A stretch of DNA of 64,000 nucleotides from Vogesella urethralis (lineage in GTDB: Bacteria; Pseudomonadota; Gammaproteobacteria; Burkholderiales; Chromobacteriaceae), in contig NZ_VMDW02000091.1 in assembly GCF_007644045.2 (NCBI RefSeq), positions 1 to 64,000 of the forward strand, given 5' to 3'. Of this stretch, positions 156 through 60,688 are shown piece after piece. How positions within the stretch are numbered: the stretch's first letter is position 1; every line of letters starts with the position of its first letter. The notes beneath the pieces were generated by a model. The model was not told the DNA's origin. It saw only the letters and a program-made list of their open reading frames with translations, and searched no databases. Both the position numbers and the translations under genes were made by a program.

Positions 156-185
156 AAAGGTTGGCCGCAAGCGGCCAACCTTTTC
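156..185. terminator. Bidirectional hairpin made of two repeat copies
   Basis: An A-run, GGTTGGCCGC, a two-base loop, GCGGCCAACC and a T-run form a perfect stem usable in both directions. It lies between the rRNA promoter and the tonB promoter. The stem consists of the window's dispersed 11-mer in inverted orientation. Confidence 0.75.
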
Positions 186-273
186 TTTATTGTGCAGCCG
201 CCGGGCGCAACCGGCACGCTATAGACAGACAAAAGCCCGTTGCGCGCGTGGTCGCAGTGGCGTGTTGTCTACT

Positions 274-319
274 TTGACACGAAGTGGCTATCGCATTAGT
301 ATTAATGAGAATAATTATC
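274..319 (+). promoter_or_regulatory. tonB promoter with overlapping Fur box
   Basis: TTGACA (274-279) and TAGTAT (297-302) are 17 bases apart. ATTAATGAGAATAATTATC (301-319) matches the 19-bp Fur consensus at 15 of 19 positions and overlaps the -10 and the likely start point. Iron-replete Fur would therefore block transcription of tonB-exbB-exbD. Confidence 0.75.
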
Positions 320-335
320 ACGCTTACTCTCAGTA

Positions 336-1043
336 ATGGAACACCGTGCTTTTCATTATGGCGCACTGGGCATCATCGGAGCGGCCCACCTGGGTTTGCT
401 GTTCATGACCCCGGGCCATGCCGCGCAGACTACCCCGCCGCAAGTGTTGCCCATGATAGAGATGGTGCCGGTGAGTCAGCAGCAAGCTGCGCCCAAACCG
501 CCTGCACCGCAGCCGCGCAAGCCCGAGCCGACGCCGCCTAAGCCGAAGGCACTGCCCAAACCGACGCCGACGCCGCCGGTACAGGTGAGCCAGTCCAAAC
601 TGGCGCCGCCGGCCAATGCCATTGCGGCACCCGCCCCCACCCCGCCGGCGCCACCGACGCCCGCTGCTGCTGCGCCTGCACCGACAGTCGTGGCAGATAG
701 CCGCCCTGCAGCGGCGGAAAAGCCCGCGGCGGCAGAACAACCCTATATTGCACCGACCCCGATCAGCGGCATGAAAGGCAACCCCAAGCCGGAATACCCG
801 CCGCTGTCGGTGGAGCTGGAGGAAGAAGGCACCGTGGTGTTGCGTGTATTGGTCAGCACCAAGGGGCGGGCACTATCGGTATCGATTTCCAAAAGCAGCG
901 GCTATCCGCGCCTGGATAACTCGGCGCGCCGCACGGTAGCTAGCCAGTGGCAGTTCACGCCCGGCAAGCGCGGCGGCGAAGCGGTAGAAGAGTACTGCCT
1001 GGTGCCGATCGAATTTACCCATCCTCACAAAAACAAGACTTAA
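336..1043 (+). CDS. tonB: TonB energy-transduction protein
   Basis: TonB links the inner-membrane proton-motive force to outer-membrane siderophore and haem receptors. The 235-residue protein has one N-terminal membrane anchor (about residues 7-25) containing a histidine, as in typical TonB anchors. A long Pro/Lys/Ala-rich periplasmic spacer (about 35-140) follows. The C-terminal TonB fold begins near 'NPKPEYPP' and ends with the 'WQFTPGKRGG' region. It is the first gene of tonB-exbB-exbD behind a Fur-boxed promoter; exbB starts three bases after its stop. Assignment is firm; which receptors it serves cannot be told from the window. Confidence 0.92.
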   Translation: MEHRAFHYGALGIIGAAHLGLLFMTPGHAAQTTPPQVLPMIEMVPVSQQQAAPKPPAPQPRKPEPTPPKPKALPKPTPTPPVQVSQSKLAPPANAIAAPAPTPPAPPTPAAAAPAPTVVADSRPAAAEKPAAAEQPYIAPTPISGMKGNPKPEYPPLSVELEEEGTVVLRVLVSTKGRALSVSISKSSGYPRLDNSARRTVASQWQFTPGKRGGEAVEEYCLVPIEFTHPHKNKT

Positions 1044-1046
1044 GCC

Positions 1047-57039: not shown

Positions 57040-57082
57040 AGCATTTTTTGATAACGACCTGTAACCCACCAGGAGTCCGCAC

Positions 57083-58189
57083 ATGCTGATTCTGCAAGCC
57101 GAACGCGATGCACTGCTCAAACCCCTGCTGGCTGTCACCGGCATTGTGGAGCGTCGCCACACCCTGCCCATCCTCTCGAACGTACTGATCGAGAAGAAGG
57201 CAGATGCGGTGAGCTTTCTGGCTACCGATCTGGAAATCCAGATCACCACCGCCAGCCACGACGACATCGCCGGTGAAGCCTTCCGCCTCACCACCTCGGC
57301 CAAGAAGCTGCAGGACATCCTGCGTGCCATCCCCGGTAACGCCACCGTTACCCTGGAACAACAGGACGGCCGCCTTACCCTGAAAGCCGGCAAAAGCCGC
57401 TTCAACCTGCAAACGCTGCCGGCAGACGACTTCCCGCTGCTGTCGGCCGCCAGTGCCGCCGAAGCCAGCTTCAGCCTGGCCCAGCGCGACCTGAAGCGCC
57501 TGATTGCCCAGGTACAGTACGCCATGGCGGTGCAGGACATCCGCTACTACCTGAACGGCCTGCTGCTGCAAACCGAAGGCAACCAGGTACGCCTGGTGGC
57601 CACCGACGGCCACCGCCTGGCCTTTGCCAGCGCCGACATCGACGCCAACCTGGCCAAGAGCGAAGTGATTCTGCCGCGCAAAACCATCCTGGAGCTGTAC
57701 AAGCTGCTGCAGGACAGCGACGAGCAGATCAACGTAGAGCTGCTGTCCAACCAGGTACGCTTCAGCTTTGGCAGCACCGTCATCATCAGCAAGATCGTGG
57801 ACGGCAAGTTTCCGGACTACAACCGCGTTATCCCGCTGGACAACAACAACATCTTCCTGCTGGAACGCGTCACCTTCCTGCAGGCCCTGCAGCGTGCGGC
57901 CATTCTGGCCAACGAAAAATTCCGCGGCGTGCGCCTGGTGCTGCGCCCGGGTACGCTGTCCATCCTGTGTACCAACAGTGAACAGGAAGAAGCCGAAGAA
58001 GAGCTGGAAATCGCCTACCAGGGCCCCTCGCTGGAAATCGGCTTCAACATCAACTACCTGCTGGATGTGCTAACCAACCTGCCGGCCGACACCGTACAGC
58101 TCGCCTTTGGCGACGCCGTGCGCGCCGTGCTGGTAACCATCCCCGAGCACGCCACGTTCAAATACGTGGTAATGCCGATGCGCATCTGA
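57083..58189 (+). CDS. dnaN: DNA polymerase III beta sliding clamp
   Basis: A 368-residue clamp with three repeated domains, opening 'MLILQAERDALLKPLLAVTGIVERRHTLPILSNVLI' and ending 'YVVMPMRI', the standard C-terminus. It lies 43 bases after dnaA with an AGGAG site. Confidence 0.97.
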   Translation: MLILQAERDALLKPLLAVTGIVERRHTLPILSNVLIEKKADAVSFLATDLEIQITTASHDDIAGEAFRLTTSAKKLQDILRAIPGNATVTLEQQDGRLTLKAGKSRFNLQTLPADDFPLLSAASAAEASFSLAQRDLKRLIAQVQYAMAVQDIRYYLNGLLLQTEGNQVRLVATDGHRLAFASADIDANLAKSEVILPRKTILELYKLLQDSDEQINVELLSNQVRFSFGSTVIISKIVDGKFPDYNRVIPLDNNNIFLLERVTFLQALQRAAILANEKFRGVRLVLRPGTLSILCTNSEQEEAEEELEIAYQGPSLEIGFNINYLLDVLTNLPADTVQLAFGDAVRAVLVTIPEHATFKYVVMPMRI

Positions 58190-58224
58190 CACCCGCCTGC
58201 CCTGCCCCGCGCAGGGTAAGCGGC

Positions 58225-58251
58225 TGCGGCCAACCACCCAGGTTGGCCGCA
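58225..58251. repeat. Inverted pair of the 11-mer between dnaN and gyrB
   Basis: TGCGGCCAACC and GGTTGGCCGCA with a five-base loop form a perfect 11-bp stem. No T-run follows, so read-through into gyrB is likely. Confidence 0.85.
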
Positions 58252-58297
58252 AACAGTGGGGCAACCGCCCCGGACAGAAAGAAACAAGAGTGGGTTT

Positions 58298-60688
58298 ATG
58301 AGCGAACAGGAATACGGCGCGGACAGCATCAAGGTACTGAAAGGTCTGGACGCAGTGCGCAAGCGCCCCGGCATGTACATTGGCGACACCCAGGACGGCA
58401 CCGGCCTGCATCACATGGTGTTCGAAGTACTGGACAACGCCATTGACGAGGCGCTGGCCGGCCATGCCGACACCATCAAGGTCACCATCCATCCGGATCA
58501 ATCCATCTCGGTGGAAGACAACGGCCGCGGTATCCCTACCGACATTCACCCGGAAGAAGGCCGCTCGGCAGCCGAGGTCATCATGACCATCCTGCACGCC
58601 GGCGGTAAGTTCGACAGCAACAGCTACAAGATCTCCGGCGGCCTGCACGGCGTGGGCGTATCGGTAGTGAACGCGCTGTCCGACTGGCTGAAGCTGAAAA
58701 TCTGGCGTAACGGCCAGGTACACGAAATGGAATTCCGCCGTGGCGAAGCCGTGGCCCCGCTCACCATGACCGGGCACACCACCCACCGTGGTACCGAAGT
58801 GACCTTCCGCGCCAGCGAAGAAACCTTCGGCAACGTGGAATACCACTTCGACATCCTGGCTAAGCGCATCCGCGAACTGTCGTTCCTGAACGACGGCGTG
58901 GCCATCACCCTGATCGACAAACGCAGCGGCAAAGAAGAAAACTTTGCCTTCAGCGGCGGCGTGGCCGGCTTCGTGCAGTACATGAACCGCAACAAGAACG
59001 CGCTGCACCCCAAAGTGTTTTACGGCATTGGCGAAAAAGACGGCATGACCGTCGAAGTAGCCATGCAGTGGAACGACAGCTACCAGGAAAACGTGCAGTG
59101 CTTCACCAACAACATTCCGCAGCGCGACGGGGGTAGCCACCTTACCGCCCTGCGCCAGGTGATGACCCGCACCCTGAACAGCTACATCGAAGAAAGCGAA
59201 GTGGCCAAAAAAGCCAAGGTGGACACCACCGGCGACGACATGCGCGAAGGCCTGACCTGCGTGCTGTCGGTAAAGCTGCCCGACCCCAAGTTCAGCAGCC
59301 AGACCAAAGACAAACTGGTGTCCAGTGAAATCGGCCCCGTGGTCAACGAAGTAATCAGCGAAGCGCTGAAAAACTTCCTGCTGGAAAACCCCAACGAAGC
59401 CAAGATCATCACCGGCAAGATCGTAGAAGCCGCCCGCGCCCGTGAAGCCGCGCGCAAAGCCCGCGAAATTACCCGCCGCAAAGGCGTGATGGACGGCCTG
59501 GGCCTGCCCGGCAAACTGGCAGACTGCCAGGAAAAAGACCCCGCCATGTCCGAACTGTACCTGGTGGAGGGTGACTCCGCCGGCGGGTCCGCCAAGCAGG
59601 GCCGCGACCGCAAGTTCCAGGCCATTCTGCCGCTGAAGGGCAAGATCCTGAACGTGGAACGCGCCCGCTTCGACAAAATGCTGCAAAGCCAGGAAGTAGC
59701 TACCCTGATTACCGCCCTGGGCTGCGGCATCGGCAAAGACGAATACAACCCGGACAAGCTGCGCTACCACCGCATCATCATCATGACCGATGCCGACGTG
59801 GACGGCGCGCACATCCGCACCCTGCTACTGACCTTCTTCTACCGCCAGACCCCCGAGCTGGTAGAGCGCGGCCATATCTACATCGCCCAGCCGCCGCTGT
59901 ACAAAGCCAAGCACGGCAAGCAGGAACGCTACCTGAAAGACGACTACGAGCTGAACCAGTACCTGCTGCAACTGGCACTGGACAAAGCCGAGCTCAGCCC
60001 CGCCGCCGGCGAAGCCCCGCTGTCTGGCGACACGCTGGGCGAAATTGCCCGCCAGTACCTGCAAGCCCGCGCCGCCATCGACCGCGAAAGCCGCGTAGTA
60101 GACCCGCTGGTACTGCACGCGCTGATGAAGGTTGGCCGCATCACCGTGGATAGCGACGCCGCCGCCCGCGACGCCGTACAACGCCTGAGCGCCCACCTGC
60201 CGGCCGAGCTGATCAAACTGGACGTGCTGCGCGACGAGAAAAACGACGCCTGGCTGATCAAGATCACCCGCATGCTGCACGGCAACGTGATGGTGACCGC
60301 CATCGACCAAACCTTCCTGGACAGCGCCGACTACGACGTACTGGCCAAAACCGGCGACATGCTGCACGGCCTGCTGCGCGACGGCGCCCAGGTAAAACGC
60401 GGCGAAACGGTCAAACCGGTAAGCGAATTTGGCGACGCGCTGGACTGGCTGCTGGGCGAAACCCGCAAGGGCCTGTCTATCCAGCGCTACAAAGGCCTGG
60501 GTGAGATGAACCCGGAACAACTGTGGGAAACCACCATGGACCCCACCGTACGCCGCCTGCTGAAAGTAAAAATCGAAGACGCCATGGCCGCCGACGACGT
60601 GTTTACCACCCTGATGGGCGACAACGTCGAACCACGCCGCGCGTTTATCGAGAGCAATGCGTTGATTGCGCGGAATATTGATGTTTAA
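58298..60688 (+). CDS. gyrB: DNA gyrase subunit B
   Basis: A 796-residue ATPase subunit of gyrase. The GHKL motifs '[13 protein letters not shown]' and '[15 protein letters not shown]', the Toprim '[35 protein letters not shown]' with 'DADVDGAHI', and the tail '[17 protein letters not shown]' are all present. It has the extra segment of about 165 residues (about 560-725) seen in proteobacterial GyrB. Confidence 0.97.

Follow-up and report, generated by a model that had tools for sequence, protein, structure and literature searches.

The window analysed here is a stretch of 64,000 nucleotides from Vogesella urethralis (contig NZ_VMDW02000091.1, positions 1 to 64,000), and the element in question is an 11-base word, GGTTGGCCGCA, which recurs along it on both strands. 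The word is very probably a DNA uptake sequence (DUS) read by a ComP-type pilin and, judging from sequence comparison, would serve biased DNA uptake. A recount gave 28 exact copies, the number put forward in a preliminary description of the window; the first lies at 159-169 and the last at 60130-60140, and the word is the most frequent 11-mer of the window. The strong enrichment described there was upheld with corrected figures: instead of about 0.1 expected copy and an excess of hundreds-fold, 100 dinucleotide shuffles of the window gave a mean of 0.19 copies (maximum 2) and an enrichment of about 150-fold, and the GC content was 62.9% rather than about 64%. The window holds 51 crudely predicted genes covering 78% of its length, and 17 of the 28 copies lie inside them, with the other 11 not wholly inside. 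The conserved hosts named earlier, gyrB, mnmE and the RND pump, were confirmed by Pfam; the acoR-like host was recognized as a GAF/sigma-54 activator, for which acoR is presumably the name. Inverted pairs had been described at gene ends and were found at 159/171, 14260/14271 and 58225/58241. The copies are listed below, with Pfam marking the gene assignments made through that database.

159..169, +, intergenic, first arm of hairpin AAAAGGTTGGCCGCAAGCGGCCAACCTTTT
2924..2934, +, starts on the last base of a PKHD-type hydroxylase gene (Pfam)
6376..6386, +, between predicted genes
8841..8851, -, in RND pump gene (Pfam)
10150..10160, -, in RND pump gene (Pfam)
11314..11324, -, in RND pump gene (Pfam)
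12089..12099, -, in HlyD-type adaptor gene (Pfam)
13420..13430, -, between predicted genes
14260..14270, +, intergenic, left half of the perfect 24-base palindrome AGGTTGGCCGCATGCGGCCAACCT
14271..14281, -, right half of the same palindrome
17788..17798, -, in FIST/MCP chemoreceptor gene (Pfam)
18049..18059, -, in FIST/MCP gene, paired in inverted orientation with a 9-mer copy at 18068
21000..21010, -, in sigma-54 activator gene (Pfam)
21252..21262, +, in sigma-54 activator gene (Pfam)
21804..21814, -, in sigma-54 activator gene (Pfam)
25297..25307, +, in predicted gene without Pfam match
26308..26318, +, in predicted gene without Pfam match
28128..28138, +, just past the transhydrogenase beta gene, which is on the minus strand (Pfam)
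35514..35524, +, in sulfatase-family gene (Pfam)
37261..37271, +, in aldehyde dehydrogenase gene (Pfam)
38550..38560, -, between predicted genes (LysR regulator and FAD oxidoreductase)
44189..44199, -, inside a probable mobile element
44628..44638, -, inside the same probable mobile element
51617..51627, -, in mnmE (Pfam)
52842..52852, +, between mnmE and yidC
58225..58235, -, left arm of inverted pair between dnaN and gyrB
58241..58251, +, right arm of the same pair
60130..60140, +, in gyrB (Pfam)

The pair at 159/171 is accompanied by a T-tract, and its second arm matches only the 9-mer defined below. A further inverted pair (18049/18068) is situated inside a gene.

Anatomy, distribution and dialects of the word

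The constrained unit is GTTGGCCGC(A), that is, a 9- to 10-mer and not the 11-mer. In 398,898 bases of Vogesella sequence, the 10-mer GTTGGCCGCA occurred 227 times against 3.1 expected under a third-order model, and the leading G of the 11-mer carried only about 0.1-0.2 bit. Words with one change at positions 2-8 were about as frequent as expected, apart from slight surpluses, for example 3 copies at position 8 where 0.5-1.0 would be expected. Substitutions at position 10 were above expectation (G 37, C 32 and T 12); C was mildly over-represented at position 1 (12 copies, 3.2 expected), as was T at position 9 (8 copies, 1.1 expected). A was weakly preferred upstream of the word, and the information outside the 10-mer was slight. 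In 164 kb sampled from the window's own genome, the 11-mer, 10-mer and 9-mer had 57, 73 and 139 copies, respectively; hence, the final A is only a preference in this species. The 12-mer of the Vogesella form, named CA after its ending, is AGGTTGGCCGCA.

The whole assembly (4.03 Mb in 157 contigs) contains 1,169 copies of GGTTGGCCGCA, divided between the forward (584) and reverse (585) strands; the reversed word, used as a control, has 4. Well over 1,000 copies had been predicted, and neither a near-random frequency nor confinement to one region was found; the word is therefore not local to the window. High counts had also been anticipated in close relatives, and all 13 Vogesella genomes carry 1,141-1,510 copies, compared with 2-22 in 36 other genomes of the family and 0-12 in 32 genomes of other families. 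Here, the family is f1 of the genome collection used (NCBI places Vogesella in Chromobacteriaceae and Crenobacter in Neisseriaceae), and the CA form was counted in 49 of its 61 genomes, that is, in all except G081-G092.

Two sister forms with the same core, GTTGGCCG, were found in the family, so that three dialects with CA, AA and AG endings can be distinguished. In 80-kb samples of nine other family genomes, the AA form GTTGGCCGAA appeared in G016, G013, G014 and G021 and the AG form GTTGGCCGAG in G024; no comparably enriched word was detected in the samples of G047, G032, G030 and G019. According to whole-genome counts over the 61 family genomes, GGTTGGCCGAA is present in G014 (902), G016 (957), G021 (968), G013 (655), G022 (532), G023 (233), G029 (105) and G017 (627), the last being the only GGTTGGCCGAA-rich genome among ten of genus g6, and GGTTGGCCGAG in G024 (1,030) and G015 (729). 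Thus, the AA form was found in eight family genomes, the AG form in two, and one of the three forms in at least 23 of the 61. The dialects differ between genera at positions 9-10, and all three forms are lacking in related genera.

The copy number of the AA form also varies within genera, from 105 to 655 in g2 (G013, G022 and G029, the assembly of G029 being only 84% complete) and from 233 to 902 in g3 (G014 and G023), as would be expected if some species were losing or replacing their tags. In the Paludibacterium denitrificans genome (G021, loci L066-L069), a second over-represented word was observed, the palindrome TGCTTAAGCA, which occupies 7 places in 80 kb (14 hits when both strands are summed, 0.07 expected).

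The wider distribution was explored in an order-level sample of 399 genomes, 13 of which belong to f1. The pattern GGTTGGCCGNR was abundant only in eight f1 genomes (686-1,635 copies); outside f1, no genome of this sample was enriched, the maximum being 107 copies in a 6.6-Mb genome. The positive control GYYGTCTGAA reached 2,043-4,489 copies in nine genomes of a single genus (g53 of family f44, presumably Neisseria) and was low in f1. Moreover, the palindromic pair pattern AGGTTGGCCGNRYNCGGCCAACCT gave 73 stretches in a collection of one genome per species for 84,980 species, which may omit the window's own genome. These stretches were confined to Vogesella species, beta proteobacterium L13, two Neisseriaceae metagenome-assembled genomes, P. 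denitrificans and Crenobacter luteus, and the pattern was not found in a viral genome collection. The CA form is used in the loci of V. oryzae, V. alkaliphila, V. fluminis, V. indigofera, V. margarita and V. aquatica, the AA form in P. denitrificans and the AG form in C. luteus.

Individual sites are kept in place between species. In alignments of the comP neighbourhoods (15-20 kb) of 13 Vogesella genomes, the 10-mer sites were identical in 562 of 899 ordered comparisons, which are not independent of one another, whereas control 10-mers in the same alignments were identical in 79,691 of 369,737 (0.22). For the window's own genome alone, 28 of 48 comparisons were identical (5 sites in 20 kb).

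A ComP-related pilin as the candidate receptor

The genome encodes 15 prepilin-type matches, one of which resembles ComP (G000:C46:60833-61255); it lies outside the window and is the sole such match on its contig. Among its PDB matches, 2nba ranked first (6e-7), 2m3k third (2e-5) and 5hz7 fourth (4e-5); 2nba is the ComP of Neisseria subflava, and the other two are that of N. meningitidis (PMC4906244, PMC12061091). With a profile of 21 family members, these three structures came out as the top PDB matches, aligned over the globular domain (2.4e-19 to 6.3e-18); most other pilins matched the profile by the N-terminal helix. The candidate belongs to the minor type IV pilins and has the ComP globular domain, and the stretch LLENAxF...Y...K...WPxLP is common to the Neisseria and Vogesella-family proteins. 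A ComP-like pilin was found in all 13 Vogesella genomes (E 1.4e-31 or better), and no ComP gene was found by tblastn within the 73 loci of the AGGTTGGCCGNRYNCGGCCAACCT scan. ComEC and DprA are also present in the genome.

In a tree of 48 rows, the four other pilins formed one clade (100/99), and Neisseria ComP was placed inside the family, together with the two AG-dialect genomes (97/86). This tree has a weak deeper backbone and several long branches, and Neisseria is represented in it by fragments. A single-protein search (E<=1e-12) detected ComP-like genes in 33 of the 61 family genomes and, within g6, in only the one motif-bearing genome of ten; this cleaner picture is a cut-off effect. With the profile, which was built mostly from motif-bearing genomes, every g6, g7 and g8 genome gave a better match than ordinary pilins reach, and the presence or absence of ComP was therefore dropped as a predictor of the motif. 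No convincing ComP was found in g9 (best 1.7e-19, compared with 4.4e-19 for the PilE-like pilin of the window's own genome).

The residues of ComP were then compared between 25 motif-bearing sequences (23 of the family and two of Neisseria) and 19 motif-free relatives; the 38 motif-free family genomes are only partly represented in this comparison and in the tree, G090 and 18 others being absent. Position 65 in its own numbering was K or R in 24 of the 25 motif-bearing sequences (22 of the 23 family members and both Neisseria ComPs) and in none of the 19 motif-free ones. Position 96 was K or R in 21 of 25 and 0 of 19, respectively, with D or E in 13 of the 19. Both positions were picked post hoc as the strongest contrasts of all alignment columns. 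The net charge of the globular part was also tried and did not separate the two groups. In each of the 42 family ComP-like proteins examined, the tail contains two cysteines, and in 40 of them the globular part has no further ones. The ComP of G017 has a third cysteine in the globular part and lacks a basic residue at position 65.

The Pfam family ComP_DUS (PF16732) was rejected as a receptor marker, since its cut-off is also passed by two further pilins of the genome; neither of these had ComP among its matches up to E 0.1. One lies in the window, within a minus-strand cluster of four prepilin-type genes (7027-8399):

7,938-8,399, -, second PF16732-type pilin, no ComP match

Comparison with known uptake systems and rival explanations

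The word resembles the DUS of Neisseria and relatives (such as AG-DUS AGGCCGTCTGAA and AG-eikDUS AGGCTACCTGAA) in its length of 10-12 bases, its more than 1,000 copies on both strands, its occurrence in genes and in inverted pairs, its clade-specific dialects and its ComP-type pilin. In register, AGGTTGGCCGAA matches AG-DUS or AG-eikDUS at 8 of 12 bases; when offsets, strands and three dialects are allowed for, the shuffle P of this agreement is 0.04. The Vogesella form agrees at only 7 of 12. The uptake signal sequence (USS) of Pasteurellaceae is a different word with an analogous genomic layout. Pasteurellaceae are reported to have no ComP homologue (PMC4906244). The density is about one 11-mer per 3.4 kb, lower than the one per 0.4-1.1 kb reported for Neisseriaceae (PMC7371117). 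The core is CCG, which agrees with the earlier remark that the motif lacks the CTG of published Neisseriaceae dialects; all eight of these have CTG in common (PMC12061091, PMC7371117). The published definition comprises CTG at +6 to +8 and A at +10, whereas +10 here is A in the CA and AA dialects and G in the AG dialect. In a literature search (subscription papers and preprints being outside its scope), neither the word nor its dialects appeared among the matches listed, and those listed for the word look unrelated by title.

The abundance, strand balance, genus-wide conservation, sister dialects, site conservation and ComP-related pilin all support the view of the preliminary description that the word is an undescribed uptake-sequence dialect, and the finding extends further, to at least three dialects that form a group apart from the CTG-core dialects published so far. 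The tag would let Vogesella cells favour DNA of their own kind in natural transformation. The ComP-type minor pilin may bind GTTGGCCGCA in free DNA at the pilus surface; pilus retraction and ComEC would then import the bound DNA, with DprA acting downstream. Tagged fragments would be imported and recombined more often, so that copies could be kept and spread, and the sister genera may have shifted to GTTGGCCGAA or GTTGGCCGAG together with their own ComP. Berry et al. (PMC3868556) reported that N. subflava ComP binds the word of its own species and that, once expressed in N. meningitidis, it mediates the effect of that word; a similar arrangement in Vogesella is therefore plausible.

Several observations weigh against an uptake sequence read by ComP. 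The core has CCG at +6 to +8, where CTG has been called universal in the DUS literature. Published ComP receptors have four cysteines in two disulfides, which form the double-disulfide (DD) region (PMC4906244); this region of Neisseria ComP is missing from all 42 family proteins with their two tail cysteines, and the candidate is thus a ComP relative and not a canonical ComP. With the profile, ComP-like genes are also found in genomes of g6, g7 and g8 that lack the motif (best E 2.6e-22 to 7.0e-50), and some of these score as well as motif-bearing ones. As to the residues, the motif-bearing genome G017 has T at position 65, opposite charge contrasts exist (K or R occupies position 110 in 28% of the rows with the motif but in 95% of those without it, and 108 is likewise more basic in the latter), and the motif-free rows represent about three clades instead of 19 independent cases, so the residue contrast is a lead only. 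ComEC and DprA are also present in most control genomes and in hardly transformable bacteria such as E. coli. Furthermore, no report of transformation in Vogesella was among the literature matches listed, and binding, biased uptake and spreading of the tag are what we infer from sequence.

A signal for chromosome maintenance (KOPS, a Chi-like or a macrodomain site), read by a DNA translocase, a recombinase or a nucleoid protein, would also be spread genome-wide, found in conserved genes and kept in place. However, the copies beside dnaA were 11 plus and 14 minus on the left and 2 plus and 1 minus on the right in the one 64-kb window, and 20-kb samples elsewhere were also mixed, which argues against signals with polarity. 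The inverted pairs and palindromes, the change of the word at positions 9-10 between genera and its lack in related genera speak in the same direction, and this explanation is considered very unlikely. A mobile or structural repeat is held to be just as improbable: terminators or hairpins of the repetitive extragenic palindromic (REP) type would owe their copy number to a transposase or to selection for termination. Among 294 nine-mer sites in 378,898 bases, 16 opposite-strand neighbours and 6 same-strand neighbours within 45 nt were indeed found, and the window pair 159/171 with its T-tract and a tandem array on contig C28 would fit such a repeat; however, the copies are mostly single, more than half of those in the window lie inside predicted genes, and the slight information beyond the 10-mer indicates that there is no longer repeat unit. 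In that array (L203, G000:C28:72501-76000, approximately 1676-1765), one motif copy faces six tandem copies with a 12-base period, in the gap between open reading frames of 546 and 547 aa.

The recognition site of a genus-wide methyltransferase, or of a regulator favouring the word, could likewise be an asymmetric 9- to 10-mer with sharp edges, but the enrichment is about 70-fold, as methylation sites seldom show, and the contrast in ComP residues would stay unexplained; among the explanations weighed here, we give it the least credence.

An uptake sequence read by ComP has a bearing on the published history of these systems. In the study of Frye et al. (PMC3630211), no obvious uptake sequence was reported in five genomes (Laribacter, Lutiella, Pseudogulbenkiania and two of Chromobacterium), ComP was not found by BLAST in C. 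violaceum, and uptake sequences were held to postdate the split from the ancestor common to C. violaceum. The motif-free f1 genera do not contradict that report. The few genomes examined earlier in the group of Vogesella had shown no uptake sequence, and the CCG dialects with their own ComPs are newly described here, relative to the literature available; they limit the reach of the published claims on origin, on absence by BLAST and on a universal CTG. It is tentatively proposed, at slightly less than even confidence, that the uptake-sequence/ComP system predates the split of Neisseria from the Vogesella family, with the core drifting to CTG in one branch and CCG in the other, and that it decayed at least twice, where ComP persists without basic residues at 65 and 96 and the tags were lost; those residues, and not the second disulfide, would make ComP read the tag. 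In this family, pairs of receptor and word form a natural series that includes tagged and untagged genomes and lends itself to the study of how pilins read DNA; the preference for self-DNA could also be studied outside Neisseria and its relatives.

Other features of the window

The absence of the motif from a defence island and a polyamine operon had been pointed out earlier. The largest gap without a motif is 7,386 bases, a length reached in 67% of trials with random placement of 28 sites, and three gaps of at least 5.6 kb were observed against 2.1 expected. Since the gaps are no larger than chance, such absences are uninformative; depletion has no statistical support and was rejected for both the mobile element and the operon.

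The segment at 42584-51189, beside mnmE, is probably an integrated satellite-like mobile element, and two copies of the word (44189 and 44628) are contained in it. It is bounded by clustered TGTGTACCTAA-like repeats at 42584-42606 and 50819-51189, between which the following features were located:

44771-44872 and 46722-46825, two clusters of AGTGGGAACA repeats
44938-47823, DUF927/primase gene
49588-50748, tyrosine integrase

Near the end of the window, a gene for a CAP12/Pycsar-type TIR effector was observed at 62050-62733 (E 1.6e-35), which suggests that it is part of an anti-phage defence island.

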